The position numbers were made by a program, and so were the translations under genes. The notes beneath the pieces are model-generated. The model saw only the letters and a list, made by a program, of their open reading frames with translations. It searched no databases and was not told the origin of the DNA. A DNA stretch of 64,000 nucleotides from Roseimaritima multifibrata (GTDB taxonomy: Bacteria; Planctomycetota; Planctomycetia; Pirellulales; Pirellulaceae), in contig NZ_CP036262.1 in the NCBI RefSeq assembly GCF_007741495.1, forward strand, positions 124,001-188,000. The letters are read 5' to 3'. Below are positions 31,600 through 64,000 of the stretch, piece after piece. How positions within the stretch are numbered: position 1 is the stretch's first letter; the number at the start of each line of letters is the position of its first letter.

Positions 31600-31683
31600 G
31601 CGGATGTGGCGGAATTGGCAGACGCGCTAGATTCAGGTTCTAGTGCCCGCAAGGGCGTGGAGGTTCAAGTCCTCTCATCCGCA
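31600..31683 (+). tRNA. tRNA-Leu (anticodon CAG)
   Basis: Acceptor stem GCGGATG (31600-31606) pairs with CATCCGC (31676-31682). The anticodon arm CTAGA-TTCAGGT-TCTAG puts CAG at 31634-31636. A long variable arm (GCCCGCAAGGGC) marks a class II tRNA, and the T arm reads GGAGGTTCAAGTCCTC. No encoded CCA. The 3' half faces the integrase gene. Confidence 0.96.
31660..31683 (+). other. Probable attachment site (attL/attB core) of the integrated element
   Basis: The 3' end of the tRNA gene (T arm and acceptor strand) is the usual target of tyrosine integrases, and the integrase starts 120 nt further. The other copy of this sequence should mark the right end but is not in the window, so core length is not determined. 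Confidence 0.6.
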
Positions 31684-31693
31684 CTAGTCTTTT

Positions 31694-31802: not shown

Positions 31803-33035
31803 ATGGCAGGTTTGGAAGTCCGAAATGGCCGTTATAACCTCATCCTTCGGTTCGGCGGCAAACGCTTCGTGCGGTCGCTGAAAACCAGCGACGAAGACGA
31901 AGCGACGTCGAAAAGGCTCCGTGTCGAGGAGAACATCAAATTGGTCGAATCGGGCCGCTTGACGATTCCAGACAATTCGGACGTCGTCACGTTTCTGCTG
32001 TCCGACGGAAAGCTAGACAGAAAGCCCGTCGTAAAAGGATCGTTGACCATTCCGCAGCTGTTCAAAGAGTTTTGGGAGGCCCTGCCAGTCGACAGCCTCG
32101 AAGGTTCGACGATGGACATGATGAAAATCCATCAGCGTCACGTCGAAAGCGTCCTCGGTAGGCGGTTGATCGCTCAGGACCTCACTCACGACGATTTGCA
32201 GAAGTACGTCACGAAACGTGCTGCAGTAAAGACTTACAAAGGGACGACGATCAGCGGGGGCACGATCAAGAAGGAAATCGTTACGTTCAACTCGGTCTGG
32301 CGATGGGGCGTTAATACCGGCAAGTTGCACGGCGAATTTCCCAAAAGCAACCTCCGCTACCCAAAATCCAAAGAACTGCCCGTCTTTCAGACTTGGCAAG
32401 AAATCGAACGCCAAGTAGCGGCGGGAGCGTCAGCCGGGATCTGGGACGCCCTCTATCTGAGTCTGGACGAAATCACCCATTTGCTGGACCACGTTAAAGA
32501 AATCGCAAATCTGCCATTTCTCTATCCGATGTTCACATTCGCCGCATACACGGGCGCTCGCCGCTCGGAACTGCTACGGTCGCAACTGTCGGACATCAAT
32601 CTGCAAGGCGGGGTCATCACTATTCGAGAGAAGAAGCGAGTAAAGGGCAAGACGAGTACTCGCCGCGTGCCGCTCGCCACGCCTCTCAAAGCGGTATTAA
32701 CCAATTGGTTAAGCGAGCACCCTGGTTCTCCGTTTACATTCTGTCATCCCGACCCGATCCTGGGGTCACACCGCAAAACTCGAGACGATGAGAACCAACT
32801 AACCAGAGACCAGGCGTCTCACCACTTCAAGCAGGTATTGCAGAATAGCCCTTGGTCGGTGATCAAAGGCTGGCACTGTCTCCGTCACAGCTTCATTTCA
32901 AACTGTGCCAGCAAAGGGATTGACCAACGCATGATCGACGAATGGGTTGGGCACAGCACAGAAGCCATGCGTCGCCGCTACCGGCATTTATTCCCCGCAA
33001 GTCAAAGCCAAGCCATGAAATCCCTGTTCGCTTGA
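31803..33035 (+). CDS. int: Tyrosine integrase of the element
   Basis: 410 residues. The N-terminus is a small beta domain (GRYNLILRFGGKRFVRSLKTSDE) as in Arm-binding regions of integrases, then a SAM-like core-binding region (LPVDSLEGSTMDMMKIHQRHVESVLG), then the catalytic domain: Arg in TGARRSEL, Lys-containing KKRVKGKTSTRRVPL, H358-xx-R361 (HCLRHSF), H384 (GHS) and nucleophile Y393 (RRRYRHL). All catalytic residues are present, so it is likely active. Position right next to the tRNA-Leu 3' end shows that it inserted the element there. No excisionase is next to it; the HTH protein at 41794 could serve. Confidence 0.93.
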   Translation: MAGLEVRNGRYNLILRFGGKRFVRSLKTSDEDEATSKRLRVEENIKLVESGRLTIPDNSDVVTFLLSDGKLDRKPVVKGSLTIPQLFKEFWEALPVDSLEGSTMDMMKIHQRHVESVLGRRLIAQDLTHDDLQKYVTKRAAVKTYKGTTISGGTIKKEIVTFNSVWRWGVNTGKLHGEFPKSNLRYPKSKELPVFQTWQEIERQVAAGASAGIWDALYLSLDEITHLLDHVKEIANLPFLYPMFTFAAYTGARRSELLRSQLSDINLQGGVITIREKKRVKGKTSTRRVPLATPLKAVLTNWLSEHPGSPFTFCHPDPILGSHRKTRDDENQLTRDQASHHFKQVLQNSPWSVIKGWHCLRHSFISNCASKGIDQRMIDEWVGHSTEAMRRRYRHLFPASQSQAMKSLFA

Positions 33036-33184
33036 ATCGACGTCATAGTTTGGCATCTTACGTGCCAATAGGCGTAGGGTATCGTGTAGCGTGGCGATTG
33101 TAGCGAAAAAGAGGAAACTGACATTGCCTGTCGACCGCATTCTGAGCAATCCGAATGAATTGCACTTACCGGCAAGAGGCAAGG

Positions 33185-34727
33185 CTCCGGTGTCGGCCAC
33201 GAATGGCACGTAGATTATTCCTAAGCCCTTTTTGGGAAACGATATATACGAAAAGAGCCTCACTTGCTTAGATGGAGTTACCACACACCCATCACCGGCA
33301 AGGAGGCCATGAACGTGAGCAGTTTGAACAATGCACGGTTTCGGCGACAGATCAGTTTTTTAAGGCGACAATTCTTACAGGACGGAGAATCTGCGTTCGC
33401 GAATATTCTCGCTGACAGTTGCATCGCTGAAGCTTTGAGAGCGAATGACGTCCAGTGGAGGGATCGAATCTTCTCACCAATGGTGACGCTTTGGGTATTC
33501 TTGATTCAGGTTCTTAGCGCGGATCACTCTTGCCGCGCTGCGGTTGCTCGATTGGTTGCTCACCGCGTTTCACAGGGAAAGCCTTCGTGCTCTGCTGAAA
33601 CTGGTGCCTATTGCCAAGCGAGAAAACGGATTCCGGAGAAGTTCTTCGCGGACGTTGTCAGGAAGACAGGACATGCAACGGTGGAGGCCGCTGACACCGC
33701 ATGGCGATGGAAAGAACGCCGAGTCCTAATGTTCGATGGAACGACCGTGACCATGCCCGATACAGCAGAAAACCAAAGCGATTATCCACAGAACTCCGCG
33801 CAAAAGCCAGGCCTTGGGTTTCCCATCGCACGCATCGCCGCTCTGCTCTCGCTTTCCTGCGGAGCTGTTCTGGATCTGCGGATTTGCAAATATGCGGGCA
33901 AGGGTCAAAGTGAACTAGGGATGCTACGACAGTTGATGGGTGTCTTTAGCAAAGGTGATGTCTTACTCGCGGATCGACTCATGTGTTCTTGGCGAGAAAT
34001 AGCCATGCTCAAAGCAAGGAGTGTTGACTCTGTGACTCGCCTTTCGGCAAAGCGAACTGCGGACTTCCGCTGCGGCAGACGCATTGGCAAGGATGACCAC
34101 ATCGTTAGATGGCCCAAACCTGTGCTCCGTGCAACCGATCCAGAGACAGATTGTTCGCTTCCGGATTTCTTGGAGATTCGTGAAACGCGTGTGCGTGTTG
34201 AGCAGGCGGGTTTCTGCACGGTTTGCATCATCATCGTGACAACGTTGCTAGATTCCGATGAAATCACCAAAGATGGAACAACGAACTGGATCTAAGATCC
34301 TTAAAAGAAACCATGCAGATGGATGAATTGCGATGCAAAACACCAGAACTGGTGCGTAAAGAGATCTGGACGCACGTTCTGGCGTACAACTTAATTCGAG
34401 CAGCGATCGCACAGGCCGCCGTCGCACACCGAATTGAACCGAGATCAATCAGTTTTAAAGGAGCCATTCAAGCAATCGAAGCATTTCGCCCTCTGATCGC
34501 ATTTCAAGGTCACCAGACCGCAAAACAACTTTCGACGATTTACAGTCATATCCTTAACGCTCTCGTCGTGCATCGGGTCGCGGACCGGCCAGACAGATTC
34601 GAGCCGCGGAGAAGGAAACGGCGAAACGACAGATATGATCTGTTAACAAAGCCAAGAGACGCAATGAAACGCGAAATCCAGAAACAACTCATACGTAACT
34701 AAGTGCCATTCGTGTCGGCCACCGGAG
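33185..34727 (+). mobile_element. IS4-family insertion sequence, decayed
   Basis: Imperfect terminal inverted repeats of about 25 bp: CTCCGGTGTCGGCCACGAAT.. (33185-33209) and its partner ..ATTCGTGTCGGCCACCGGAG (34703-34727), enclosing one broken transposase gene. A target duplication could not be made out. Within the preceding 33036-33184 spacer nothing else is seen. Confidence 0.7.
33309..34702 (+). pseudogene. IS4-family transposase, broken by a small deletion
   Basis: Frame 1 (33309 to the stop at 34293-34295) carries the first DDE Asp (RVLMFDGTTVTMPDT) and the second (GDVLLADRLMCSW). Frame 2 continues to 34702 with the IS4 signature RWNNELDLRSLKETMQMDEL (R-3-E-6-K) and RKEIWTHVLAYNLIRA. 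The two parts meet near 34262-34270, where the preceding Tyr of the Y-2-R-3-E-6-K motif is missing. The sequence ATCACCAAAGATGG suggests that a piece between two short repeats was lost. The copy can therefore not make an intact transposase unless the frames are joined by recoding, which the missing Tyr argues against. An AGGAGG precedes the start region. Confidence 0.82.
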
Positions 34728-35383
34728 CAAGTTGGCAAGGCATGAGAACGCGCGTCAGTGTGATTCAATGCAGAAGATCGCAATTACGTCGCGATGCTTC
34801 AGGCAAATGCCCCGTTTGCTTCCTCCCCTTTGTGCAGCAAAACCACATCAAAGGTTTGCCGGCCGGCCCGCGCATCTTTCCAATTCGTCCACCTATATTC
34901 AATATTTGGGGTCGCATGGATCGCAGTGTTTCGGGACTCCCCTCTGTCCAAGGCTTCGTTCTTGCTCCACCGTCGTGACACCTTGTCGCCATCCGCTCAT
35001 GCTTAGCGGCATTTTCGCCAATCGCTTTCTCAGGCATTATCGCCTACGGTCGCTGCGACGTGACACTTAGGATTGCGTTGGAAGCGAATGGAGACTCATT
35101 TGCCGCGGCATCTTGGAACATTGACCGAAATATCGGAGGCGTGGAGACGTCTTTCCATTCGGCAATGGTGTTAGCGCCGACGGTGTTAACCCACCTTTGC
35201 TAAAGTGACGTTTGCGTTACTGTCAGTTTGGCCCTAGGCCAACCACCGATGACGAAAATCACGGCAATTGACAAATCATCTTGTTTGGCCTTTGATATGC
35301 AGACTCCCCATCCAGCCATCAGAAAACCAACGCTGATGCTCGCCGAAAACGGATTTTGATTGACCTAACGTGTCAACCAAACA
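34728..35383. other. Spacer between IS4 remnant and CBASS; no supported gene
   Basis: 656 bp. A 90-codon minus-strand frame (34765-35037) has no family I recognise and no ribosome site I trust. Small symmetric TTGGCC-CTA-GGCCAA at 35228-35242 lies about 140 nt before the CBASS start and could be an operator. The CBASS promoter must lie in the last part of this region. Confidence 0.45.
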
Positions 35384-36499
35384 ATGGAAACTTCTGAAAT
35401 GAATCTAAACGGCCAACCAGAACAACAAACCACGAAACCTTTGCGGGTATTGAGCCTAGATGGTGGCGGGATGCGTGGAATCTATTCAGCTGCGTACTTA
35501 TCGCGATTGAACGATCGTTTTGCACAGGTACACAAAACATCCAAACTCATTGACTTGGGCAAGCGTTTTGACTTGATAGTGGGCACCAGTACCGGCGCGC
35601 TAATCGGTTGTGGTTTGGCGAAAGGCGTTCCCTTGAGTGAGATCGTTGCTCTGTACCGAAACAACGGAAGCAATATTTTTCGTCGGTCAATTCCTAAAAC
35701 GATGTTCGGCGTTCCTCTGGACATTTTGAAACGCGGTAAAGCCCTAGCCGTGGGCGAAAAATCGCTGCGAGAGGCGTTGCAACTCTGCCTCGGCAATACG
35801 ACTCTTGCGGAGATATATCGTGACCGAAATATTGCGATGGCGATTCCTGCGGTAGAAATGGGCCGCCACGGTTCTTGGGTCTTTAAGACAGCGCACCTAA
35901 ATGGTTCAAATCATCGCGATGATGACTACTCGCTCGTTGATGTCTGCATGGCAACCAGTGCAGCCCCTCTCTACCGATCGCTAGCCCGCATTCCAGTACC
36001 AGACTCAGGTCAAACTCGTGCATACAACTATTTTGCTGATGGTGGCCTTTGGGCGAATAACCCGGTGCTTGTCGGACTAATCGACTCGCTTGGCATGGCA
36101 TCCGAGGGACAAGAAATCCAAATCTATAGTTTGGGGACATGCTCAAGACCAACTGGCGAGAATCTGCGCCCGTCGGATGTGAATCGAGGCCTAGTTGGCT
36201 GGCGGTTCGGTGCTGATGCTGCCGCTTTGTCGATCGACGCACAGGAAATGGCGTACGACTACATGGCAAGGATGTTGACTAAGCACGTAAAGAATACGTG
36301 CACTATCGTCCGTTTTCCATTCGACGATGTGCCCGCCCACATGATGGACTATTTGGGACTCGATGACACGCGTGAAGAGTCAATGGATGAACTCGTTCGA
36401 CAAGCGCACTCAGATGCGGATTTCACTAACAGTAAGTGTGCAAAGCCGGAGGACACAGACGGACGGCTGATCGCTTCACTATTTAAACCAGAAGAATAG
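35384..36499 (+). CDS. capV: CBASS effector, patatin-like phospholipase CapV
   Basis: 371 residues. Patatin fold elements in order: oxyanion hole DGGGMRG (residues 26-32), nucleophile Ser69 in GTSTG (67-71), and catalytic Asp219 in DGG (219-221) followed by LWANNP. No signal peptide or membrane segment. In CBASS, CapV-type enzymes are silent until they bind the cyclic dinucleotide made by the neighbouring CD-NTase, and then hydrolyse membrane phospholipids, killing the infected cell before phage release. It is the first gene of the operon, 20 nt before the CD-NTase. ATG 35399 is an alternative start. The C-terminal 120 residues probably hold the nucleotide-sensing face. Confidence 0.93.
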   Translation: METSEMNLNGQPEQQTTKPLRVLSLDGGGMRGIYSAAYLSRLNDRFAQVHKTSKLIDLGKRFDLIVGTSTGALIGCGLAKGVPLSEIVALYRNNGSNIFRRSIPKTMFGVPLDILKRGKALAVGEKSLREALQLCLGNTTLAEIYRDRNIAMAIPAVEMGRHGSWVFKTAHLNGSNHRDDDYSLVDVCMATSAAPLYRSLARIPVPDSGQTRAYNYFADGGLWANNPVLVGLIDSLGMASEGQEIQIYSLGTCSRPTGENLRPSDVNRGLVGWRFGADAAALSIDAQEMAYDYMARMLTKHVKNTCTIVRFPFDDVPAHMMDYLGLDDTREESMDELVRQAHSDADFTNSKCAKPEDTDGRLIASLFKPEE

Positions 36500-36519
36500 A
36501 TTACTTGCGAGGAAACTAA

Positions 36520-37611
36520 ATGTTTGATTGTTCAAAAGACGTTATCGCGTACCACAAAGACGATGTCACGCTGCGTCAAAGTGACTGCGACAGCATGCGA
36601 CAGCGCAGGAATTCTAACCAGGCTCGGTTGGCAAATGGACTAAAGAAGAACGACGACCCAGCTCCGTTGGAGCACGTCACACAGGGATCATACGAAATGA
36701 AAACGATGGTCCAACACCCGGATAACGACTACGACATTGATGACGGTGTCTACTTCGAAAAGGATGGCTTGGTCGGGAAGCAGGGCGGAGACAAATCCGC
36801 TCTCGATACACGGAAGATGATTCGTGACGCCGTTGATGACGGAAGCTTCAAGACACCACCAGAAGTCAAGACGAATTGCGTGCGAGTTCAGTACGACACC
36901 GGTTACCACGTTGACCTGCCAGCCTATCGGCGTGTAACTGAAACGGACATCTTCGGTAACGAGACTACCTACAACGAACTAGCAAGCTCATCCTGGATGC
37001 GATCGGATGCTCGAGATGTAACGAGCTGGTTTAATAGACTGAACCAAGAACTAAGCCCAGATACAACGAACGGTCGCCAAGTTCGCCGAGTTGTTCGTCT
37101 GATTAAGAAATACTCCAAGAGTCGCTCCAGTTGGGAGTCAAAAAACCTCAGCGGTTTCGGAATTACAAAACTGGTTACCGAGTGCTATCGAGCGAACGAA
37201 AATCGGGAAGATATGGCTCTCCATGACACGATGGAAGCGATTCGGGACCGGCTAAACGGCAACCTCGTTGTTGACCATCCTGTCACGCCGGACGCGACGA
37301 TCACAACCGGTGACGAAGACCCTAAGGCAATTTTTTTGCGTGAGAAACTCTCTGAAGCGATCAAGAATTTGGAGCCGTTATTTGAGTTCGGCTGTACTCG
37401 GGAAAAGGCTTTGAAATGTTGGGACAAAGTATTCGCGACGAAATACTTCACTGATCGTGATGCAAACGCCAAGAAGAGCGAAAGTTCTGCAAAGTCAATG
37501 AATGCAGTGAGTCCATTCGGCGTGTTTTCGGAATCACGACGAGAGGAAATTGAGGAAAACCCTGTCCAAAAGCAGGGTGGTGGTAGGTTCGGCACGAGCC
37601 ATGAATGCTAA
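36520..37611 (+). CDS. CBASS CD-NTase, DncV-like cyclic dinucleotide synthase
   Basis: 363 residues, SMODS-type nucleotidyltransferase. Active-site parts: GSYEMKT (G56-S57), the metal-binding pair D72-I-D74 in DYDIDDGVYF, and the third acid D132 in YHVDLPAYR. The N-terminus FDCSKDVIAYHKDDVTL and TMVQHPDNDYD are much like Vibrio DncV relatives, which make 3'3'-cGAMP; the product here is thus probably a cGAMP-type dinucleotide (inference). The tail is Gly-rich, GGGRFG, followed by TSHEC. In type II CBASS, Cap2 links the C-terminus of the synthase to other molecules and raises its activity. GAGGA precedes the ATG; the last 11 nt overlap cap2. Confidence 0.94.
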   Translation: MFDCSKDVIAYHKDDVTLRQSDCDSMRQRRNSNQARLANGLKKNDDPAPLEHVTQGSYEMKTMVQHPDNDYDIDDGVYFEKDGLVGKQGGDKSALDTRKMIRDAVDDGSFKTPPEVKTNCVRVQYDTGYHVDLPAYRRVTETDIFGNETTYNELASSSWMRSDARDVTSWFNRLNQELSPDTTNGRQVRRVVRLIKKYSKSRSSWESKNLSGFGITKLVTECYRANENREDMALHDTMEAIRDRLNGNLVVDHPVTPDATITTGDEDPKAIFLREKLSEAIKNLEPLFEFGCTREKALKCWDKVFATKYFTDRDANAKKSESSAKSMNAVSPFGVFSESRREEIEENPVQKQGGGRFGTSHEC

Positions 37612-39382
37612 GAACTCAATAGCGGAGCTTGCCCGTTGGATAGACGCTCTCCCCAATACGAGAAGACTTGCCGGCCATGAATTGCACAACTATCGCAAGC
37701 AATTTGTTGACGGTTGGCGCATTGACCTGAATCTCGCGGAGAACGTGTCCATCAATTTGTTGATTACTGCTCAGTTTCCGTTTGTCTCACCGAAGATTGC
37801 GCTGATTGATCGAACCAAGTTCTTGTCTTGGCCGCACGTCGAGAAGGACGGCTGCCTATGCGTCTTTCCTCCCAATACCAATGTTGACCCGTATCGCCCA
37901 GTCGAAGTTGCCAAATCTCTAGTAGCTGAAACCGAGGCCCTATTGCAGTGTCTTCTCGACGGCAATTTGGATGATGATTTCAATAGAGAATTTGATTCGT
38001 ACTGGCTGCTATCGTCAGACGACTTACGCCATCAGTTTTTTTCGATACTTCCGGACGGATGCGATTCGCAGAAAGTCGCCGTTTGGAGTTCAAGTAAATT
38101 TCGCATAATTGGTGCCGACGAAAAGTCTGTACTTTGCTGGCTAAAGAACCGTCTTCAGAAAGACTACGACAGAACTGACACCGGCTTTTTGGTCAAATTG
38201 TCGAAACCGCTCTCGCCAGAGGAATACCCAGACTGCACGGAGGCTCTACTGGCATTGATCTCGGAAGATGCACCCAACTTTTTGGAATCGATATCGGATC
38301 ACATCGCAAAGTCTTTTCAACCATTGACGATCATCTTGGCAATCAGCGCCACAAACGGGACCAACTATGGTGTCGTGGAGCTGTGCCGCTTATTAAGAGC
38401 CAACGAGAAGGTCAGCAAGTGTGGCCGATCGAACCGCGTTAGCGTTAATGGTTTTCGCGATGGAAAGGCTCCGCTGAGCGTTCAACTTAGTCAGCAAACA
38501 AAATACACCAAAGTTGTTCGGTCACCACTAGAACGAGCGGATGCGGAGTGGGCACTTGGCGGTCGCGGCCACGATCCGCGGTTTGCGGTGCTACAGAAGC
38601 AGCGAGTCGCGATCGTCGGCCTTGGATCCTTTGGTTCCTTTCTTACCGACAACCTAATCCAGGCCGGGCTTGGGCAAGTTGCGATGTTTGATGGAGACCT
38701 AATGCGATGGGAGAACACGGGCCGACACCTTCTCGGTGGCGACACAGTAGGACAGAACAAGACGGACGCACTAAAGCGGCGGTTTGAAACCAACTATCCG
38801 ACAATTGTTAGTTGTGAGTCTAACCCGGTCGATTGGCAGCAAAGGATTGAGACTGCTGAGTCACTAGATGGGTTCGATTTAGTGATTTCGACCACCGGCT
38901 CATGGAAAGCTGAGTGTATGCTCAATGACCTTCATGAATGCTCCGGGAAGCGAACACCGATTGTATATGCCTGGCTCGAGCCGTTCGCCGCAGCTGGACA
39001 TGCTGTCGCAATAATGGAGCGAAGTGGATGTCTTCAATGTGGATTTACTGGTGCAGGTCAGTTTTCTCGGCGCGTATTCGATTGGCCAGCTGCACCGACG
39101 ACCATGGTTTCGCAAGCGGGGTGCGGGAACGAGTTTCAACCTTACGGCATAACCGACTCGCTTCACTCAATCGCAATGGCAGTTGATCTATCGGTTGAAT
39201 GTCTTCTCGGTCAGCTAACCGCATCGACACATCGTGTTTGGATCAACAAGGATCGAAAAATCGATCCGATTCAGCGAGGTTGGTCTGTTGCATGGCAAAC
39301 AGTCCCCAACTTTGATACGCGTGAAGAAGTAGTCTCCGAGTTTCCGTGGTCCGCTCGCCCGGATTGTCAGCGATGCAGTTAG
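37601..39382 (+). CDS. cap2: CBASS Cap2, fused E2-E1 ubiquitin-transfer-like enzyme
   Basis: 593 residues from ATG 37601, inside the end of the CD-NTase gene (frame open from 37550). N-terminal E2-like domain with the probable thioester Cys in DGCLCVF (C85 or C87). A linker domain leads to the ThiF/E1 domain: nucleotide loop IVGLGSFGSF (340-345), FDGDLMRWENTGRHLLG with the acidic metal/ATP residues, and a late AGCGNEFQPYG segment that likely has the E1 catalytic Cys. Two CxxC pairs (CLQC and the final CQRC) can hold zinc. Known role: adenylates the C-terminus of the CD-NTase, passes it to Cys and conjugates it to a target, which primes the synthase. Next gene overlaps by 10 nt. Confidence 0.94.
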   Translation: MNAKNSIAELARWIDALPNTRRLAGHELHNYRKQFVDGWRIDLNLAENVSINLLITAQFPFVSPKIALIDRTKFLSWPHVEKDGCLCVFPPNTNVDPYRPVEVAKSLVAETEALLQCLLDGNLDDDFNREFDSYWLLSSDDLRHQFFSILPDGCDSQKVAVWSSSKFRIIGADEKSVLCWLKNRLQKDYDRTDTGFLVKLSKPLSPEEYPDCTEALLALISEDAPNFLESISDHIAKSFQPLTIILAISATNGTNYGVVELCRLLRANEKVSKCGRSNRVSVNGFRDGKAPLSVQLSQQTKYTKVVRSPLERADAEWALGGRGHDPRFAVLQKQRVAIVGLGSFGSFLTDNLIQAGLGQVAMFDGDLMRWENTGRHLLGGDTVGQNKTDALKRRFETNYPTIVSCESNPVDWQQRIETAESLDGFDLVISTTGSWKAECMLNDLHECSGKRTPIVYAWLEPFAAAGHAVAIMERSGCLQCGFTGAGQFSRRVFDWPAAPTTMVSQAGCGNEFQPYGITDSLHSIAMAVDLSVECLLGQLTASTHRVWINKDRKIDPIQRGWSVAWQTVPNFDTREEVVSEFPWSARPDCQRCS

Positions 39383-39858
39383 ACCAACCAATCAGATATG
39401 CAATTGCAAATAGCGACCAATGTATTGTTGTGGAGACTCAAGTCTTGGAAGTATTTGACGACTATCGACAGGACCGCTGCTGGAAGCGCGAAGCAGGTGG
39501 GCAGCTATTTGCCAAGCTTACCAATGATGAAATTGTGCTCAAAATTGCGACTTCACCTACGCGGAAGGACATTCGCCGCCGCTTTCAATTCATTCCATTT
39601 CTGAAAAACCAACAGGAAGAAATCAACTCGCAATTTGAGTCAGGCCTGTTTTTCGTTGGTGACTGGCATACACATCCGCAAACGGTGCCGGAAATGTCAC
39701 CAGAAGACCGAGAAAGCATGGCAGACTGTTTCGTGAAATCGAGTCACGGCTTGGACGCTTTTCTCATGGTAATCGTCGGTACGAGACCATTTCCCGAAGG
39801 CCTGTCAGTCTCAATTCATCGTGAAAGAGATTTTGCAAAGGCAACTTTAGTGAGCTAA
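39373..39858 (+). CDS. cap3: CBASS Cap3, JAB/JAMM-family isopeptidase
   Basis: 161 residues from ATG 39373, overlapping the cap2 stop; the frame begins at 39346. The zinc-protease motif is complete: E40 in REAGGQLF and H99-x-H101-x7-S109-xx-D112 in DWHTHPQTVPEMSPED. In type II CBASS this enzyme cuts CD-NTase conjugates made by Cap2 and holds the system back; it is related to eukaryotic deubiquitinases. It ends the operon; no clear terminator follows at once. Confidence 0.94.
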   Translation: MQLDQPIRYAIANSDQCIVVETQVLEVFDDYRQDRCWKREAGGQLFAKLTNDEIVLKIATSPTRKDIRRRFQFIPFLKNQQEEINSQFESGLFFVGDWHTHPQTVPEMSPEDRESMADCFVKSSHGLDAFLMVIVGTRPFPEGLSVSIHRERDFAKATLVS

Positions 39859-40046
39859 ACCTTTCAATTTGATAGGTGATCCTGCTAGTAACTCGGCGGT
39901 CTTCGCGTATGAGCGACGGCGATGATTCGTTCGTTGCGAACCATGTAGGGCATGAGGTGCTTTTCCTCAGAGATTCTGAATTTTATCACCGCAGACAGAA
40001 GGGCCACGAAGCCCTGCCCTAACTTTCCGCAACTCGTCAACCTGCA

Positions 40047-40110
40047 CCGGTGGCCGACGCCGGACGCTCTGATTTCGTCGATCGGAAGATAATCCGGCGT
40101 CGGCCACCGG
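40047..40110. repeat. 64-bp inverted-repeat element, shares 19 bp with the IS4 right end
   Basis: Perfect 18-bp arms CCGGTGGCCGACGCCGGA (40047-40064) and TCCGGCGTCGGCCACCGG (40093-40110). Continuing rightward, GTCGGCCACCGGAGCAAGT also occurs at the right end of the IS4 element (34714-34732). The surrounding spacer 39859-40160 shows no gene. Confidence 0.8.
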
Positions 40111-40241
40111 AGCAAGTCGCGTTTGATGGCTGAACACCTCCGTCAATTCGAACAATTACCGGGGATGTCCGATTTGTTGTTGAAACTCTTGATGGTCTCT
40201 CGGGTAAAACGTAGGTGGTTGTGTCTGAGCTTGCAAGAAGA

Positions 40242-40291: not shown

Positions 40292-41500
40292 TTAGGCAGG
40301 CGGTACCTCCGGTCGCCCCAGGGCCGCGACAAGCAAGGGAAGTGATGTGTGACCGGTGATCCGGCGAAACCCTTTCTCGGCCTCCAGCAACGCATACGAA
40401 AGCCACCGACTTGCTTGATCGGTTTCGGCGCGAAAACGCGTCACACGCCCCAGTCTGCGACGCGTGTTTAAGAATGAGTTCTCAATCGCGTTAGTGCTCA
40501 AAAGTGAACGGTGAAGCGTGTTGGGGACGTTCAAGCGATGCAAAGCCAGCAGGTCATCACCGGCTTCGTGCAGACTCCGATACGCCTCGGCGTTTATCGG
40601 TTCCAAGAACGTTTTGAGCTCGCCGAAGATTTCCTCGGCAGCTTCGATTCCCTGAACGCGGCGAAGGCGAGTGAATAGACGCGATAGTTCGCCCCAATGA
40701 CGCTTGGAAAGTTTTCCTTTGATATTACGTTCTTTGTGAACCAAACAACGCTGGATGACAGCGTCAGAAAAGAACTCAACCACCGCACCGCGAAGAGCAT
40801 CGCTGCCATCGAGAACCACGTACAAGCGGTGGTCGCATGTGAAGCCGCGATTGACGATTCGGGTCATCAGTTCACGCGAAACTTCCAGGTTTTCACTACT
40901 GCCCAACGCAAAGTCCAAGACGTGTTTACGGCCTCCGCTGTCGATCCCCAGTGCCACTACGGCAGTCTGATCTTTGCTCAAATGGATGCCGTCAAGCATC
41001 AACGCACACCAGGTGATCGAGCTCAGGTCCTTCCCTCGCATCTGCTCAATCAACTTGTTGCCAGCGTCCTTCCAAAGTCGCGAAACGTTGGATTTTTTGA
41101 CACCGGGAGAATTCGGCTTTAGCTCTTCGATACCGCGAGAAGTGACCCCCGAAACGATCGCTTGTACGATCTGTGCCTGTAACTGTTGGGGATCTTTGGC
41201 GACACGGTAGGTGCTTAGTTCAACTTCATGACTGGAGCCGTTACTGAACTTCTGACGCACTCGCGGCCGGACAACTTCTTCGCGTTCGCCCTCGTACAGC
41301 ACACGCCCTGAGCTTGAGCCGGCACGATAGACATCGCTGGACGTGGGATCGTGCTTGGGACCGCACAGCTCCGTTACTTCTGCGGCCATGACTTCACTGA
41401 TCATTTCCCGCACGTGACCTCTCAGGAAATTGCGAAAGATCTGTCCGGTTTCAGAAGCTGAAACTTGCCCCAGTGATTCTAAAAGACTAACTTCATTCAT
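40292..41500 (-). CDS. IS256-family (mutator) transposase
   Basis: About 402 residues from ATG 41500 (MNEVSLLESLGQVSASETGQ); the frame is open to 41593. Typical IS256/mutator elements: an N-terminal DNA-binding part (VRPRVRQKF), the first DDE Asp in WCALMLDGIHLS, the second in LYVVLDGSDALRGAV with FFSDAVIQRCLVHKERNI (C-x2-H), and Glu in the C-terminal TNAIENSFLNTRRRLG. Length and motifs are complete, so this copy is likely active. It lies convergent with the CBASS operon. Confidence 0.93.
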   Translation of the reverse strand: MNEVSLLESLGQVSASETGQIFRNFLRGHVREMISEVMAAEVTELCGPKHDPTSSDVYRAGSSSGRVLYEGEREEVVRPRVRQKFSNGSSHEVELSTYRVAKDPQQLQAQIVQAIVSGVTSRGIEELKPNSPGVKKSNVSRLWKDAGNKLIEQMRGKDLSSITWCALMLDGIHLSKDQTAVVALGIDSGGRKHVLDFALGSSENLEVSRELMTRIVNRGFTCDHRLYVVLDGSDALRGAVVEFFSDAVIQRCLVHKERNIKGKLSKRHWGELSRLFTRLRRVQGIEAAEEIFGELKTFLEPINAEAYRSLHEAGDDLLALHRLNVPNTLHRSLLSTNAIENSFLNTRRRLGRVTRFRAETDQASRWLSYALLEAEKGFRRITGHTSLPLLVAALGRPEVPPA

Positions 41501-41793
41501 GATGGTCTCCCCGTCGGTTGCTGCCGACGAAAATTGGAAAGTTGTGGAGAGCAGAGTCTGCTCTCCGGGAGACCATCTTTCAACTTTCAACAATTATTTG
41601 GACGCTTCCTAAAAGTCCATGCCGGGCGATTAAACGGCTGTCCAGAGTATTCGGAGTCCTTGATGACCCTGTTCAGCCGATGGCTCTAAGGCAATAATAA
41701 AACATCGCTGGAATTGATTTGCCGTCAATCCATCGTAGGATCCATGCTCTCTTGCCCCGGATCATGGCTCTGTTTTTTGGCGTGAGGTTTTCT

Positions 41794-42267: not shown

Positions 42268-42513
42268 AGGCTGCAGTGTGTTATATAAGTGTTAAATAAA
42301 GTGTTACGCTGTGGATAGCCAGCGATAACCTTCTGAAATTTGCACCTTTTTCAAGGTAGCCTGTGGGTAAAATGTCGTTCGATTGTGTGTGGAATGTCGA
42401 AAAGGCGTGTGTGAAATGACGAAGACAGTTCGGGTCTGCGCGAGGATTCAAACGCTTTTCACTTGTGGGTGAAATGTCGTTTTAGCTTGACAGTGTGGGC
42501 GAAATGTCGTTTG
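42260..42513. other. Plasmid replication origin (oriV) with iterons and DnaA boxes
   Basis: Perfect DnaA box TTATCCACA (42260-42268), second near-match TGTGGATAG (42310-42318), and between them an A/T-rich stretch (TTATATAAGTGTTAAATAAAG). Then five direct repeats of the type TGTGGGTGAAATGTCGTTT start at 42362, 42384, 42407, 42464 and 42494; the last two are closest to the consensus. This sits directly before the RPA-family initiator gene, as in iteron-controlled theta plasmids. Confidence 0.85.
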
Positions 42514-42524
42514 TCATTAGGGGT

Positions 42525-43574
42525 ATGAATGAAACCACGACAACACGCTCGCCGCTGCTTCCCGACCGGCATCCCACACACGACTTCTTCGTTTGCGACA
42601 TTTTCAACGCGGCTCCTAAAAGTGACATGGCGTCGATGGAGCATCCAATCTTCAGCCTTTCCACCAAGCCTGATCGCAGTATTCGTCGATACGATCACGG
42701 TGACTTATTCGTTGAGATCCGACCGTCCGCTGACGGGCTCGCGACAGTTCACGATCGCGATATTCTCATCTACTGCATTAGCCAAGTTATGGCGGCAAAG
42801 AATGCCGGACGGTCCGCGTCGCAGATCATTAGGTTTCGCGGCCACGAATTACTGCGAGCTACAAACCGAATGACTAATGGGCGGGGCTATGATGGGCTCA
42901 AGGCGGCTTTGGAGCGCCTCGCCGGCACCAGGATCACGACCAACGTTGTCACGGGCGGCAAAGAGATCATCCGTGGATTCGGGCTGATCGATCAATACGA
43001 AATTGTCCGGGAAACTCGGGGCGGTCGCATGCAGGAGGTCGAGGTTAAACTCTCAGACTGGGTTTTTAACGCCGTAGAGCATCATGAGGTGCTGACGCTG
43101 AGCCGAGACTACTTCCGGTTAAGGAAGCCTATTGAGCGGCGAATTTACGAGCTCGGTCGCAAGCATTGCAATCGCAAGGCAGAATGGAAGATTTCCCTCG
43201 CCCTACTTCAAAAAAAATGCGGAGCCGTTTCGTCATCTAGGGAGTTCCGACGACTGGTCAACAACATTGTCCAGGAAGATCGAACCTATTCTCACATGCC
43301 CGACTATGCCGTGGATCTGAATGATGATGACATGGTCATCTTCACCAGTCGTGGGACGATTGCAAGCTTAACTACTTCGAGCGATGTCGACCTGAGCCAT
43401 GTTCGCATCAGTGGTGACGGATACGATCAAGCGCGACTTGCGGCTCCGGGCTGGGATATTCATCGTGTCGAACAGGAATGGCGGGAATGGATGACAGAGT
43501 CTCCAACCAATTCGGACGCCGCATTCATCGGCTTCTGTCGCAAGTGGTTCGAGAAACGTGGACGTCCCGCATAA
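42525..43574 (+). CDS. Plasmid replication initiator, RPA family (PF10134)
   Basis: About 349 residues from ATG 42525; the frame also has a GTG at 42495, inside the last iteron, less likely. The sequence FFVCDIFNAAPKSDMASMEHPIFSLSTKPD, then GLATVHDRDILIYCISQVMAAKN, VKLSDWVFNAVEHHEVLTLSRDYFRLRKPIERRIYELGRKHC, is the known pattern of replication initiator protein A from alpha-proteobacterial and other plasmids. It binds the iterons upstream and opens the origin; binding of its own promoter region would control its amount. It shows that the element was or is a replicating plasmid. Confidence 0.92.
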   Translation: MNETTTTRSPLLPDRHPTHDFFVCDIFNAAPKSDMASMEHPIFSLSTKPDRSIRRYDHGDLFVEIRPSADGLATVHDRDILIYCISQVMAAKNAGRSASQIIRFRGHELLRATNRMTNGRGYDGLKAALERLAGTRITTNVVTGGKEIIRGFGLIDQYEIVRETRGGRMQEVEVKLSDWVFNAVEHHEVLTLSRDYFRLRKPIERRIYELGRKHCNRKAEWKISLALLQKKCGAVSSSREFRRLVNNIVQEDRTYSHMPDYAVDLNDDDMVIFTSRGTIASLTTSSDVDLSHVRISGDGYDQARLAAPGWDIHRVEQEWREWMTESPTNSDAAFIGFCRKWFEKRGRPA

Positions 43575-43589
43575 ACTTCGTTTATGCAA

Positions 43590-43949
43590 TCAGACCCGAT
43601 TCGCCAGCTTTTGGCTTTCCGCGTGCAGCCAATTTTCTATCGCCACTTCGATGATGTCCTGGATGCTGTTTGGCTCAACGCCGTCTAGCTGTCGCTCCAA
43701 CGATGCCCGTTTCAAAGCCGAAGCAAGTTCAGGACGACAACGAGTAGTGAGCGGAACGCGGCCCTTGTATTGTGGCAAAACACTTTTTTCCTTCTCGGCA
43801 ACCGGCGTTTCGGTTGACTGCTCGGCTGCTACTGTTGAAGCATCTGTGCTCTTTGAAGGTTTTCCCCCGAACACAAATTGTTTTTCTAATTCGTCGATGG
43901 CGGGAGTGTCATTGAGGCCAGTCACCAGTGAACGTCGCTCTTTGGTCAT
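43590..43949 (-). CDS. ParA partner (small partition protein)
   Basis: 119 residues. Overlaps the parA stop by 4 nt (ATGA). The N-terminal two-thirds is Ser/Glu/Pro-rich and probably disordered; the C-terminal part VPLTTRCRPELASALKRASLERQLDGVEPNSIQDIIEVAIENWL fits a ribbon-helix-helix or similar small DNA-binding fold. In type Ib partition loci the gene after parA codes a small centromere-binding protein, which is the likely role. No ParB of the classic long type is seen. Confidence 0.72.
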   Translation of the reverse strand: MTKERRSLVTGLNDTPAIDELEKQFVFGGKPSKSTDASTVAAEQSTETPVAEKEKSVLPQYKGRVPLTTRCRPELASALKRASLERQLDGVEPNSIQDIIEVAIENWLHAESQKLANRV

Positions 43950-44623
43950 GCGGAAACCCTCGCTTTCGACTTCTTCGTCGCCTTTTTTCGAACCGCGTCG
44001 GGAAGAATCTCGCAGAACAACCGGTGAACTTCTTGAGAGGCGTCTTTCGTCTTAGACCCCATCTGCCAAACCACTGCACCCTGCCCCGGAGCGTCTGCAT
44101 AAATCTGCCGTAGAACGAGCGGGGTATCAGCCATCGGGAGATTAAGTGCGGCCGCCGCTTCAATCATGTCACGGGTCAGTCGATAGTTCTTCCTCACCAT
44201 GCTAAGCACGATGACAGCCCTTGGTAGGCCGCCGCGAATGTCTTGGGCCTGCCGTAGCACTTCGGTAGCTTTGGAAAGGGCTCGTATTTCAAGCAGTGAA
44301 GCCTTGCATGGAACAATCGCCAAATCGGCTCTCAGCAGAAGTGCCCTACTCGTTTCGGTCTGGCTTCCGGGGCCATCCGCGACAAGAAAGTCAACGTCTT
44401 GAGCCAAAGCAGGCAACTCATTAAGAATGTCGTTCGGCTTGTCCAGTACAACGGTTTTCACATCCGGGCACGCTTCGCGAACCCACTGGCTGGAACTATG
44501 CTGAGTGTCACAATCGGCAAGCAGGACGCTGTGCCCTTGTTCATGCAGCCAGGCTGCCAGATGAACTGCGGTTGTTGATTTCCCGACTCCGCCTTTGGTG
44601 TTTGCTACTGCGATGATTGTCAT
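43946..44623 (-). CDS. parA: ParA-family partition ATPase
   Basis: 225 residues from ATG 44623, which begins directly with MTIIAVANTKGGVGKSTTAV, the deviant Walker A (KGGVGKST). Then LLADCDTQHSSSQW (Walker A'), FLVADGPGSQTETSRALL (Walker B) and LVLRQIYADAPGQGAVVWQM. The lack of an N-terminal HTH domain marks a type Ib ParA. It drives segregation of plasmid copies together with the small downstream protein and a centromere, for which the repeats at 44691-44767 are candidates. Confidence 0.93.
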   Translation of the reverse strand: MTIIAVANTKGGVGKSTTAVHLAAWLHEQGHSVLLADCDTQHSSSQWVREACPDVKTVVLDKPNDILNELPALAQDVDFLVADGPGSQTETSRALLLRADLAIVPCKASLLEIRALSKATEVLRQAQDIRGGLPRAVIVLSMVRKNYRLTRDMIEAAAALNLPMADTPLVLRQIYADAPGQGAVVWQMGSKTKDASQEVHRLFCEILPDAVRKKATKKSKARVSA

Positions 44624-44690
44624 GCAGCAGCCATACCAGCAATCTTTCCAAATGGCAAGCAGAAATGTTTGCCGGGCATCATGCAAACTG

Positions 44691-44767
44691 GTTAGCCAGA
44701 TCGCATGAAAGTTAGTTGGAAAACAGGCATGTAAGCATGCTTCCATGTTAGCCAGCAATCATGAAAG
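44691..44767. promoter_or_regulatory. Direct repeats upstream of parA, candidate centromere/operator
   Basis: GTTAGCCAGATCGCATGAAAG-like units at 44691-44711 and 44747-44767 (18 of 21 bases equal), 56 nt apart, with the palindrome AAGCATGCTT (44733-44742) between. They lie just before the parA start, where type Ib partition sites usually are. Confidence 0.55.
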
Positions 44768-58440: not shown

Positions 58441-61161
58441 TTACCTCGCATGTTGTGGCTGGTGTGCTGATACCCATTCCCTGATTCGTTCAATCTGCTT
58501 GGCTGCAAAGCGTTGGGCTTGCGTCCGAGCACGTTCAATGGCTTCTTTCAGTCGGCCATTCGCCGCGATTTCTTCCTGGACTGAATTGGGAATGAGATCG
58601 CTGGCGTTCATCGCCTGATGGCTTTGCTTTACTGCTTGGCGGAGTGCCACACGATCGTCGGTATAGATGGTTACTTGCTCTCGACCACGGCTGACTGATA
58701 CGTATGCCTGCTCGGGCGACGATGCCGGGAAGGAAAGGCTACTTTGGGCTACAAGCACTCGGTCGAAGGTCTGCCCTTGCGATGCGTACGAAGTAACTGT
58801 GGTCCCGTGGTCAAAATGCCCCCACTCTGCCGGCACGGTTTGCCCGTTGCTCAGCTTGAGGTCTCCCGATCCCGTAAAGCCTTTGAGCGTCAATACTGTT
58901 CCGTTGTTAAGTCGTTTTGCTGAAGAGTTTCGGTCGGGTCGGCGATTCTTGGTGATCCGCAGTAGATCCCCTTCCGCAAAATTTGAGTTGTGCGGTCGAT
59001 AAACATCGAATGACTTGGGCGATTCGATAGGCACTGAAGCCATGCCATCCGGGGTGCCAGCAAGCACGCGGCCGTCAGCAACGGACTCGATAGTCAATCG
59101 GTCGCCCGGCTTATAGCCCCCTTTTCCCTTGGTCACAAATTCGACGACGTCTCCTGGAGAGTAACTAGTCGCATCGCCTCGCTGAGCTTCGGTAAGACGT
59201 TTGGACCGGAGCGTCACAATGCTTTGTTCTTTGCCGGTGATCTTCCCACGCGACCGAAGTTCACTTCGAATTGCCTCTGTTACCGATTCCCGCTCGGCAT
59301 GGGTTGGGGCAACGACCAAACACGATTTTTTCACTTGAATGGAATCGGCATAGTCACGCGCAAGTTGTTCGTTGCGTTGTTGGTCATCATCGATTTCCTT
59401 GATGAATCCAAGTTTCTCCAATTGGTCCAATCCTGCATCGACATCGCCGCGACTCAGCGAGGTAACCGCGTGACGGTACTCGCCTCGTTGACGCCGAATC
59501 GTCGACACCTGATGGGGTTTGATCCCTGCATCCGACTCTAATAGCCTGAGAGGAAGCCCGCGAGCGACGGGCTGATGCTGCTGAGAGTCACCGCTGAGGA
59601 TAATCCGTGCGTCGATCTGGCTCGCAACCCTGGTTAGCTCGGCCAAGTCTTGTGTCCCAATCAAGCCGGCCTCATCTACCCAAATGACCCCATGTTTCGC
59701 ATCGTTTTGTTTCTGTTCATTTTTAAGAAAATACGCGAGCGTTTCGGCATCGAAGCCTTCTTGCTCCCGAAGCACACCATGAGCGGCCTTGGCCGTTGGC
59801 GCGAGAACCGTGACATGATTGCCATTCTTTTTCATCGCGTCGATTGCTTCGCTCATCAGGGACGTCTTTCCGCTTCCTGCAACGCCACGCAGGATCTGCA
59901 ATCTGTCGTTTGATTCTAGAAGTCCGGTCACGGCTGTTTTTTGTTCGTCGCTGAACCACTCTCGCTCAATAGCGTGACCGAGGGCGAGTGCTGAAACCTG
60001 GCCGCGTCCACTGCGAGCGAAAGCCAGCAAGGCTTGTTCTTCGGCTAGCACTTTTCGTGTACTGAGTAAAGTGTTTTCACCCTCCCCTTCCTTTATCCAG
60101 TCACGATTGGCTACTTGCTGGTGAATATCCGCAACGCTTGTTTGGCCGATTCCGTGGCGAATTGCCTCGCGAAGCAACTCCCGTTCGCGAACGACCGATT
60201 TCAATTCAAAGCAGTGGTCTGTCGCAAAGTCCACTGCCTTTCCCGCCGCCTCCTTTTGTTTTTGTGGCACGTAATCTTTCGCAGCAATCGCCTTAAGCGT
60301 TGCAGCCTCTTCATCAGTCAGCCGCTGGCGCCAGAATGCCGGCAGTTGTCCCTCGGGAACCAGGTTGGTTGACTTTTTGTCGCGTGTCTGGGCTCCAAGA
60401 GAGCCTTTCGCCGCACTGTCGGTAACCCCTTTTTCTTCGGCAAGTTTTTCAATCAGGCTGGTACGCCGCGAAAATTTTTCGATAGTTTGCCGTGTGACTC
60501 CAGCGATCTCAAAGTCACGCTCGCTTCGTTCAACCGGATAGCCAATCGACGCGATTTTCCCAGCCAAGCGAGACTGAAAAATGGCCTCGTAATATCCTGA
60601 ATCACGGACAACGGCGGACAGGTCGGCCGCTGTCCAGCGATTACCCGTATTCGTGGCGTTTAAGACAAAACCGTGTACATGCAACTGAGGGTCGGGGTGA
60701 CCATCCACGGGCCTGGCGGTTGTGTGAAGCCAGCTCGCGCCTACCAAGTTGCCCGTTTTAGCGAGCGTCATTGTCCCCCGCTTCTGATTCACCCTGGTCT
60801 GAACATCCTGCTCTAAGCATGCGTAGGTCTCATGAGCGGCATCTTGCACTGCCTGGAGGATCTCTTGATCTTGAGTGACTCCCCAGAGCAGGGATACGGA
60901 CTTAGGAGCAGAAAGCGTGATGTCGGTTCCGACTCGCCTATCCGGCCGGTTTCGTTGGGTAAGGCGTTTGTCTTCAAACGGCAGAAGGTTATCGATTAAT
61001 CGATCAAAAAGTTCTTTTTCGACGTCACCTTCCAGCCCAAGCATCGTCGCCCCACGTCCGAACCATGCGCCCTTAAGTTGAGAGGGGCCAGAATCGTAGT
61101 AGTCACTGAATGCATAGTAATTCTTGGCGTCTCGCGAGCTTTTTGAGTGAGTAATCCGCAT
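58441..61161 (-). CDS. MobF relaxase-helicase (TrwC/TraI-like)
   Basis: 906 residues. The relaxase domain is at residues 1-300: Tyr pairs N14-Y15-Y16 and D20-Y21-Y22, LSAPKSVSLLWG (82-93), and the metal-binding His set H146, H161, H163 in HTTARPVDGHPDPQLHVHG. The helicase/ATPase part begins near 400: Walker A GVAGSGKT (426-433), Walker B-like IWVDEAGLIG, SGDSQQHQPVARG, and the late UvrD-type motif TSYASQGQTFDRVLV with YVSVSRGREQVTIYT. The enzyme nicks oriT, stays covalently bound to the 5' end and unwinds DNA for transfer. Somewhat shorter than TrwC (966), but all parts are present. Confidence 0.94.
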   Translation of the reverse strand: MRITHSKSSRDAKNYYAFSDYYDSGPSQLKGAWFGRGATMLGLEGDVEKELFDRLIDNLLPFEDKRLTQRNRPDRRVGTDITLSAPKSVSLLWGVTQDQEILQAVQDAAHETYACLEQDVQTRVNQKRGTMTLAKTGNLVGASWLHTTARPVDGHPDPQLHVHGFVLNATNTGNRWTAADLSAVVRDSGYYEAIFQSRLAGKIASIGYPVERSERDFEIAGVTRQTIEKFSRRTSLIEKLAEEKGVTDSAAKGSLGAQTRDKKSTNLVPEGQLPAFWRQRLTDEEAATLKAIAAKDYVPQKQKEAAGKAVDFATDHCFELKSVVRERELLREAIRHGIGQTSVADIHQQVANRDWIKEGEGENTLLSTRKVLAEEQALLAFARSGRGQVSALALGHAIEREWFSDEQKTAVTGLLESNDRLQILRGVAGSGKTSLMSEAIDAMKKNGNHVTVLAPTAKAAHGVLREQEGFDAETLAYFLKNEQKQNDAKHGVIWVDEAGLIGTQDLAELTRVASQIDARIILSGDSQQHQPVARGLPLRLLESDAGIKPHQVSTIRRQRGEYRHAVTSLSRGDVDAGLDQLEKLGFIKEIDDDQQRNEQLARDYADSIQVKKSCLVVAPTHAERESVTEAIRSELRSRGKITGKEQSIVTLRSKRLTEAQRGDATSYSPGDVVEFVTKGKGGYKPGDRLTIESVADGRVLAGTPDGMASVPIESPKSFDVYRPHNSNFAEGDLLRITKNRRPDRNSSAKRLNNGTVLTLKGFTGSGDLKLSNGQTVPAEWGHFDHGTTVTSYASQGQTFDRVLVAQSSLSFPASSPEQAYVSVSRGREQVTIYTDDRVALRQAVKQSHQAMNASDLIPNSVQEEIAANGRLKEAIERARTQAQRFAAKQIERIREWVSAHQPQHAR

Positions 61162-62694: not shown

Positions 62695-64000
62695 TTAGCG
62701 TTGTTTGAAGGAAACGAGTCTGAAAGGGCTTCTCTCCTTACCAAACGTTCTGCCGCCCTGAGTAAGAAAGGCGTCCACGATTTTCTTATTGGATTTTCCG
62801 CCCCGCCGAAGTGCTAGAAAAAAGTCCGGCGGGCAGCGTGGCGTCAGCTGCTGACTGACCGAGACGGTGTATTCATCGATTCCGAACAGCATGTTCATTG
62901 GGTCGATTTTTCTTTCCGGCTTGGCTTCGCTGACCGTCACGAAATTCTCTCGGCTGGAACCCCATGCGTCTGAGAAATAAGAATTCGTACGGCTACAGGA
63001 ATTTGCCAGAACTAACCGCGTATTAAAGTTCGCAAAAGTAGCCAACATGTGCTGCTCTGCGACGCTATCCCCTCCCATCGCTGACTGAATGAGGGGTAAA
63101 TTTTGTGCCGAAGAAATGAACGCAAGCTTATGCGAACGGGCAACCGACTGGACTTTTGCTTCGAAGTCGGGATCCGCGATGAGGTACTGGCATTCATCAC
63201 GCACGAGTGCCGTAATCTGCTTCGGATTTTTTCTGCGCAGCGCAGCTTCCATCACCATGAGCATGATTAGGCTCTGGAAAAGTATGCCGCCCTGTTGATA
63301 CACAAGTACGGGAAAATCCATCACTACGCAGTAACCGTCCAGCGGCATCTCAGGCGTAAAGTTAGACGTTTCAGAGCAGACAGTTGAGTAAAGGGGATCG
63401 ACCAAAAAGGGTGAAAGAACGGACGAGCATTGAGTGAGGACGGACCCCCTTCCTTTACTACCGATCGATATAATTTGTTCCAAGATGAATGACGCTGCTT
63501 GTGTGTACTGGCGACGTTCAGAGTCGGTTTGCAGGTTCCTTTCGGCAGCGGAAAGCACTTGGTAACAAAATGACGATTTAAATAACTTGGTTCCAACCTG
63601 TTCGAAACTACTTGGACTAGTGACAATAAATTGATAGACGTCTTCAACCGAAATTGGGGAACCATTTTTCTTCGCCATGTGACACAGCGTAATCGCGTAC
63701 GTCATCATTTTTTCGAACAAGTTTGCCCAGTAGGCCTCCTCCTTACGCCCGCTCGATTTTGTAATCAAGTTGTTAAGACGCTGAAAAAGTTGCGTGGCAG
63801 TCGCGGGCGTACCCCCCGTTCGGGTGAGCTCAAAATAAAGGAAATTGAAAGTGAATTTTCCGGGAACCAAGTGTTTCAATTTATGCTCTTTGCCTGCCTT
63901 TTTAATGACACGAATTGCGTTTTCAGATTCATCGGCCTTGACGCAGGCCCATAGTACGGAAACGTCACGACGAATGATGTCCTCCATTAGGATCTTCAAC
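62695..64000 (-). CDS. TraG/VirD4/TraD-like conjugation ATPase, C-terminal part (N-terminus outside window)
   Basis: 434 residues visible; the frame runs to the window edge. Walker A is not seen and must lie beyond 64000. Visible parts: helical FFELTRTGG-like bundle (ATQLFQRLNNLITKSSGRKEEAYWANLFEKMMTYAITLC, like the all-alpha domain of coupling proteins), Walker B-like GYCVVMDFPVLV, the ALVRDECQYLIADPDFEAKVQSVARSHKLAFISSAQNLPLI segment (Glu and Gln of the ATPase core), and FANFNTRLVLANSCSRTNSYFSDAWG. It would bring the relaxase-DNA complex to the channel. Placed upstream in the same transcript as the relaxase block. Confidence 0.85.
   Translation of the reverse strand, partial: LKILMEDIIRRDVSVLWACVKADESENAIRVIKKAGKEHKLKHLVPGKFTFNFLYFELTRTGGTPATATQLFQRLNNLITKSSGRKEEAYWANLFEKMMTYAITLCHMAKKNGSPISVEDVYQFIVTSPSSFEQVGTKLFKSSFCYQVLSAAERNLQTDSERRQYTQAASFILEQIISIGSKGRGSVLTQCSSVLSPFLVDPLYSTVCSETSNFTPEMPLDGYCVVMDFPVLVYQQGGILFQSLIMLMVMEAALRRKNPKQITALVRDECQYLIADPDFEAKVQSVARSHKLAFISSAQNLPLIQSAMGGDSVAEQHMLATFANFNTRLVLANSCSRTNSYFSDAWGSSRENFVTVSEAKPERKIDPMNMLFGIDEYTVSVSQQLTPRCPPDFFLALRRGGKSNKKIVDAFLTQGGRTFGKERSPFRLVSFKQR

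Follow-up and report, generated by a model that had tools for sequence, protein, structure and literature searches.

An extended cyclase end in the type II CBASS operon of an integrated element in Roseimaritima multifibrata

The closest described systems are the type II cyclic-oligonucleotide-based antiphage signalling systems (CBASS) of Escherichia coli TW11681 and Vibrio cholerae, which consist of CapV, DncV, Cap2 and Cap3. According to Jenson et al. (PMC10097602), Cap2 joins the cyclase to its targets via the last cyclase residue, which is required for conjugation; across 1,583 aligned cyclases that occur with Cap2 and Cap3 this position is highly conserved and holds Gly or Ala. Four other terminal residues abolish thioester formation, and Cap3 cuts a tandem cyclase fusion exactly at the C terminus of the first cyclase. 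Here we describe an operon from a 64,000-nucleotide stretch of the Roseimaritima multifibrata genome (the window) that has the same four gene kinds with conserved active-site residues. It differs from the two described systems in that its cyclase is CdnB-like by fold, continues for five residues past the Gly, and misses the NCBIfam cut-offs. In ubiquitin-like precursors, as in the bacterial Bil system, a short C-terminal peptide has to be taken off before E1 can use the Gly. We propose, with confidence that is evenly balanced, that the window cyclase may likewise be a pro-cyclase, matured by Cap3.

The operon and its cyclase end

Window positions 35384-39858 are made up of four open, closely packed reading frames on the + strand, which by sequence constitute a complete four-gene type II CBASS operon (CapV, cGAS/DncV-like nucleotidyltransferase (CD-NTase), Cap2, Cap3). 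Its features, with the lines of evidence for each, are as follows.

35384..36499, + strand: CapV-type patatin phospholipase, the CBASS effector (PADLOC, Pfam, column conservation)
36520..37611, + strand: CD-NTase (CdnB-like cyclase), 363 aa (PADLOC, Pfam, conservation, AlphaFold2 model, fold search)
37591-37593, + strand: conserved Gly358 of the CD-NTase
37594..37608, + strand: five-codon C-terminal extension of the cyclase, TSHEC, residues 359-363 (past the end of relatives and of the PADLOC profile)
37601..39382, + strand: Cap2, an E2-E1 fusion (PADLOC, Pfam, alignment, conservation)
39373..39858, + strand: Cap3, a JAB/JAMM isopeptidase with intact JAMM residues (PADLOC, alignment, conservation)

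Open reading frames (ORFs), PADLOC and Pfam all bear out the four genes and coordinates given in a preliminary description of this DNA. The best PADLOC matches are to a phospholipase effector (5.4e-100), a cyclase (PDLC00783, 3.9e-148), an E1-E2 protein (PDLC00836, 1.7e-162) and a JAB protein (PDLC00891, 4.4e-58), and the Pfam families Patatin, DncV-like_NTFase, ThiF with Prok-E2_B, and Prok-JAB are matched above their cut-offs. The NCBIfam CBASS equivalog scores lie below theirs (CBASS_lipase, 197 versus 200; cGAS, 119 versus 150; Cap3, 58 versus 200), and the operon is therefore a divergent CBASS member. The most likely starts are ATG 37601 for Cap2, which sits within the codons of the cyclase extension, and ATG 39373 for Cap3. 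The genes had been described as overlapping tightly, which holds for cyclase and Cap2 (11 nt) and for Cap2 and Cap3 (10 nt), but CapV and the cyclase are separated by a gap of 20 nt.

To gauge conservation we used alignments of relatives from public genomes and plasmids (50 rows for CapV, 54 for the cyclase, 44 for Cap2 and 15 for Cap3) and the columns in which 95% or more of the rows agree. The window proteins keep 67/70 such columns in CapV, 60/61 in the cyclase, 49/54 in Cap2 and 19/19 in Cap3. Among the residues kept are S69/D219 of CapV, D72/D74/D132 of the cyclase, C87 and C508 of Cap2 (its E2 and E1 cysteines) and E40/H99/H101/D112 of Cap3, which include the putative catalytic positions; what the comparison measured is their conservation. 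C477 and C480 of Cap2 are invariant in a five-row alignment. The earlier statement that the operon is complete and intact by motif thus stands for the numbered active-site residues, all of which are kept, but it overlooked the five-residue extension of the cyclase.

The cyclase reads GGGRFG up to Gly358 and then TSHEC (codons ACG AGC CAT GAA TGC TAA); the usual end of relatives with Cap2 is mostly GGGR(F/Y/H)(G/A). As encoded, therefore, the cyclase does not end in the Gly or Ala of type II CBASS, and it does so once five residues are removed. PADLOC profiles, which were made independently by others, end where we place the cut in the window cyclase and in two further extended cyclases. The PDLC00783 alignment stops exactly at window residue 358 (349/349 of the profile) and at residue 345 of 350 in the cyclase of Ancylobacter polymorphus plasmid pB (L095), leaving GSALP over, and PDLC00795 stops at residue 346 of 349 in a Priestia cyclase (L173), leaving MES. 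In an ordinary control (L142) cyclase and profile end together, at 355 of 355. A frameshift or one-base error as the origin of the tail was rejected on the edits tried at codon 359, where no single substitution or single-base indel restored the usual end.

The AlphaFold2 model of the cyclase, built from 22 sequences, has a mean predicted local distance difference test score (pLDDT) of 87, and its last 33 residues (331-363) are predicted to be disordered (pLDDT <50). The nearest solved structure, both by sequence and by fold, is a CdnB (7ljo), and the top structural matches of the model are Bacteroides and Deinococcus CdnB, with DncV appearing from rank 11 and V. cholerae DncV at rank 13. The cyclase had been called DncV-like; its Pfam family is DncV-like_NTFase and DncV is among the fold matches, but CdnB is nearer. 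Kinship with DncV therefore does not settle the nucleotide product of the cyclase.

Extensions and Cap3 among relatives

We surveyed cyclase ends in 68 distinct relatives with scores of 150 bits or more; a stop and a downstream Cap2 are present in 63 of them. More distant CD-NTases, which often lack a G/A end and had no systematic Cap2 check, were excluded from these counts. Ala or Gly is the last residue in 59 of the 63, including one cyclase (L128) that ends seven residues past the homologous Ala. The four other ends belong to L023, a draft with a frameshift, to L045, whose gene is truncated, and to the A. polymorphus plasmid together with its relative (L135, of which L140 is a longer stretch), the last two sharing the five-residue tail GSALP. 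None of the four relatives without a visible Cap2 ends in A/G. Extensions similar to that of the window thus occur in the Ancylobacter-type pair (five residues) and in Priestia (three residues), all with Cap2 and Cap3, and two further cases are ambiguous. Since the G/A-end rule is broken by L095, L140 and L173 as well, we file the window operon as a type II CBASS variant; the extended cyclase end is a novel variant on an otherwise ordinary operon. Like the window operon, the Ancylobacter-type pair combines Cap2 and Cap3 with a cyclase running five residues past the conserved residue, here an Ala; it differs in a cyclase only 45% identical, in the sequence of the tail and in a patatin of another subfamily (PDLC00755).

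To relate the extension to Cap3 we placed 61 operons with Cap2 on a tree, 33 with Cap3 (window counted) and 28 without, using longer stretches and a Cap3 profile. L023, L045 and L097 (truncated Cap2, ordinary end) were dropped beforehand, as were L036, L037, L098 and L137, in which no Cap2 was seen; the contig of L008 ends before any stop. Extensions are found in 4/33 Cap3-bearing operons (the window, L095, L140 and, less clearly, L141, a longer stretch of L128) and in 0/28 Cap3-less ones, and the tree requires two changes to give the window and the Ancylobacter-type pair their tails. The Cap3-less operons are of the type CapV-cyclase-Cap2, mostly from Alphaproteobacteria (Agrobacterium, Sinorhizobium, Bradyrhizobium and others), with cyclases 53-61% and CapV ~48-52% identical to those of the window. 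Unlike the window operon, they have no detected Cap3 (28 rows, with L021 unsure because only 1,921 bases follow its cyclase) and an ordinary end, mostly GGGRHA. With no Cap3 detectable across this clade (e.g. L005, L011, L099, L154), Cap3 seems dispensable there.

A second sample covered other cyclase clades through 14 plasmid matches to Cap3, picked with a preference for non-clinical hosts from the 60 that were listed out of 189 matching records. A cyclase accompanies Cap3 in 13 of the 14 (L170 showed none); 11/13 end in G/A and 2/13 are extended. Cap2 of L162 is missing from the record's incomplete gene table. One of the two extended cyclases is that of Priestia, ending MES, with Cap2 and Cap3 present; the other, on a Vibrio nigripulchritudo plasmid (L167 2792-4478), ends ANNE, and the annotation splits its Cap2 into two ORFs, one E2 and one ThiF.

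Proposed maturation by Cap3 and its alternatives

Reasoning from the protein families, infection would lead the CD-NTase to make a cyclic nucleotide, which in turn would activate the CapV phospholipase. Cap2 would have to activate Gly358, but five residues, TSHEC, follow it, so that the JAMM peptidase Cap3 would first have to cut after this Gly; Cap2 could then conjugate the cyclase through the exposed residue, and Cap3 could later reverse the conjugate. On this reading, and if the operon functions in this host, Cap3 would be needed for maturation in addition to its part in deconjugation. Deubiquitinases mature ubiquitin-like precursors in the same way, but the modifier here is a nucleotide cyclase without a beta-grasp fold, whose processing we only infer. 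We know of no other modifier lacking the ubiquitin fold that undergoes precursor processing, and this would be the first; among the openly licensed PMC papers listed, none was seen to describe such cyclase extensions. We favour maturation because it is the simplest account that keeps both Cap2 and Cap3 useful. More tentatively, and at somewhat less than even confidence, the same may apply in several cyclase clades: some type II CBASS cyclases would be pro-cyclases whose extension blocks Cap2 until Cap3 trims it, which would make Cap3 an essential activator.

The foremost alternative is that a shifted stop has removed the conjugatable end, leaving Cap2 idle on the cyclase and the operon either working at a basal, conjugation-independent level or starting to decay. 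In its favour, published systems lose conjugation and have weaker defence once the terminal residue is replaced or taken away (PMC10097602; A331E in PMC11153139). Yet all four window ORFs are open, Cap3 retains its full set of strongly conserved columns, the GGGRFG motif of the cyclase has not drifted, and the extended operon of the Ancylobacter-type pair, Cap2 and Cap3 included, is under purifying selection. L095 and L140 are 96% identical in DNA (4% of bases differ) and keep both the GSALP tail and the reading frames, with ratios of nonsynonymous to synonymous substitution rates (dN/dS) of 0.08 for the patatin, 0.20 for the cyclase, 0.31 for Cap2 and 0.22 for Cap3, values that rest on few changes (in the cyclase, 13 synonymous and 9 nonsynonymous). 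The capped-cyclase operon of this pair is thus maintained, its tail persisting under dN/dS of 0.08-0.31. We consider the stop-shift a possible but less probable explanation than maturation by Cap3.

The small number of substitutions behind these ratios is one of several points that weigh against maturation. No close relative of the window operon shares its tail, so the evidence of selection is that of the Ancylobacter-type pair. In a leave-one-out comparison the window Cap2 keeps 47/52 conserved columns, fourth lowest of 26 rows and under the median, which could mean relaxed constraint, and the tail and two-ORF Cap2 of L167 fit decay. Pooling both samples, extensions number 6/46 in Cap3-bearing and 0/28 in Cap3-less operons, a difference that is not significant (one-sided p = 0.051, or p = 0.085 when one ambiguous extension counts as ordinary); with related rows in addition, the association of tail and Cap3 is suggestive only. 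The 28 Cap3-less operons form one clade, and 6/33 Cap3-bearing rows match weakly (Cap2 65-82 bits, Cap3 34-41 bits). No common motif was seen among the extensions, and the tail of L141 itself ends in Ala, so that this cyclase may need no trimming. In published systems, Cap3 could be dispensed with against several phages, although an E. coli system needed it against T4 and T6 (PMC11153139).

It is also conceivable, if improbable, that Cap3 is not a maturase and that some other protease, such as a host carboxypeptidase, trims the tail, or that Cap2 accepts a longer C terminus. The predicted disorder of the last 33 cyclase residues would leave them accessible to proteases, and the longer tail of L141 ends in Ala. 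However, published mutants with S, V, R or W as the last residue form no Cap2 thioester (PMC10097602), so acceptance of a terminal Cys is unlikely, and general trimming would not predict the absence of tails from Cap3-less operons (0/28, a weak point). A sequencing or assembly error at the cyclase end is highly improbable: although the phylum cyclase and class E2 searches turned up no other genome that shares the operon, the assembly consists of a single contig of 7.2 Mb, the single-base edits tried at codon 359 do not restore the usual stop, and extended tails recur in other genomes, identically in two.

Context and meaning of the capped cyclase

The element that holds the operon is ~51.9 kb long, counted between attL and attR, and is integrated at tRNA-Leu(CAG). 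The features of the element and its borders are listed below.

31600..31684, + strand: tRNA-Leu (CAG), the integration site (ARAGORN)
31626..31685, + strand: attL, 60 bp spanning the tRNA 3' end, exactly repeated at attR
31803..33035, + strand: tyrosine integrase of the element (PF00589, 1.7e-21)
33184..34728, + strand: IS4-family element, its 30-nt terminal inverted repeats 87% complementary
40292..41593, - strand: IS256-family transposase (NF033543, 185.8 bits)
42495..43574, + strand: plasmid replication initiator (RPA); 67% identity to a plasmid protein of Paracoccus
43946..44758, - strand: ParA-type partition ATPase of the element
58441..61161, - strand: MobF/TrwC relaxase-helicase of the element (PF08751, 2.9e-60)
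62695..63999, - strand: TraG/TraD-like protein (TraG-D_C; PF12696, 8.4e-06), a fragment running off the window
Genome position G000:C1:207453-207512, beyond the window: attR, 60 bp, 100% identical to attL

The preliminary description had placed the operon between two insertion sequences near the integrase end of a conjugative element. The place near the integrase end is confirmed, and so are the insertion sequences, one of the IS4 and one of the IS256 family; the former is probably inactive, since its transposase is split over two ORFs (33264-34295 and 34313-34702). A short inverted repeat pair 3' of the CBASS genes (40033-40117) resembles the ends of the IS4-family element and is perhaps a remnant, which would put IS4-like ends on both flanks of the operon. 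As to conjugation, integration is shown by the integrase and the 60-bp att repeats at the tRNA, and there are a relaxase and a TraG-D_C match, but the whole genome holds no PF03135 (VirB4) match, other secretion ATPase families not having been searched; mobilisation is therefore plausible, self-transfer not shown.

The element also encodes ParB, a 1197-aa protein kinase fused to WD40 repeats (L161 5120-8713) and a 2071-aa RHS-repeat protein (L161 9452-15667). Its replication initiator is near other Rhodobacterales plasmid proteins too. The relaxase is closest, among the matches listed, to Runella and planctomycete plasmids, and three of its four best plasmid matches bear planctomycete names (Paludisphaera and Singulisphaera are planctomycetes), in keeping with a host from that phylum. 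With a Rhodobacterales-like initiator and a Runella- or planctomycete-like relaxase, the element looks composite across phyla on sequence similarity, and its CBASS end may be of proteobacterial origin.

That the element spreads CBASS within the phylum, as had been suggested, is not borne out. The cyclase finds a match (E <= 0.001) in 4/392 genomes of the phylum (window counted), strong in two only, the window and G105, and E2 matches occur in 3/397 genomes of the class. Most of the 47 cyclase relatives in named genomes are proteobacterial; Bradyrhizobium supplies the best match, at 62%, and identity reaches 65% across residues 1-315 in a gammaproteobacterial draft genome. The finding of CBASS on a mobile element is thus largely correct but ordinary, its closest CBASS relatives being proteobacterial. 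The G105 operon (L142) has Cap2, Cap3 and an ordinary cyclase end, and no patatin was recognised among the neighbouring stretches and ORFs scanned. Beside it, in this genome of the same class, lie a SMODS gene and a SMODS-associated 4TM effector (L142 505-2679). A recombinant operon with a foreign Cap2 was suspected, as Cap2 is ~33% and the cyclase up to 65% similar to relatives; this was rejected, because the best 14 plasmid matches of Cap2 share records or genera with those of the cyclase, and Cap2 probably just diverges faster.

Single-protein queries of viral contigs gave no relative. The cyclase alignment found two operons there, both with ordinary cyclase ends, and the Cap3 alignment 21 loci. 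One of these had already been found with the cyclase; another (L106) is a Cap2-Cap3 operon whose upstream ORF ends GGGGYA, L105 is too short for a verdict, and neither Cap2 nor a cyclase was matched at the remaining 18. Phage records yielded one match, at 33%.

PMC11153139 treats the effect of Cap3 on type II CBASS, helpful or restraining, as a matter of speculation, and a naturally capped cyclase offers a clean test of it: should exposure of the conjugated Gly depend on Cap3, mutation of Cap3 would be expected to abolish both conjugation and defence. If the proposal is true, Cap3 of such operons would play a part opposite to that of V. cholerae Cap3, for which an antagonist role has been proposed, and the logic of ubiquitin precursor processing would act on an immune nucleotide cyclase.

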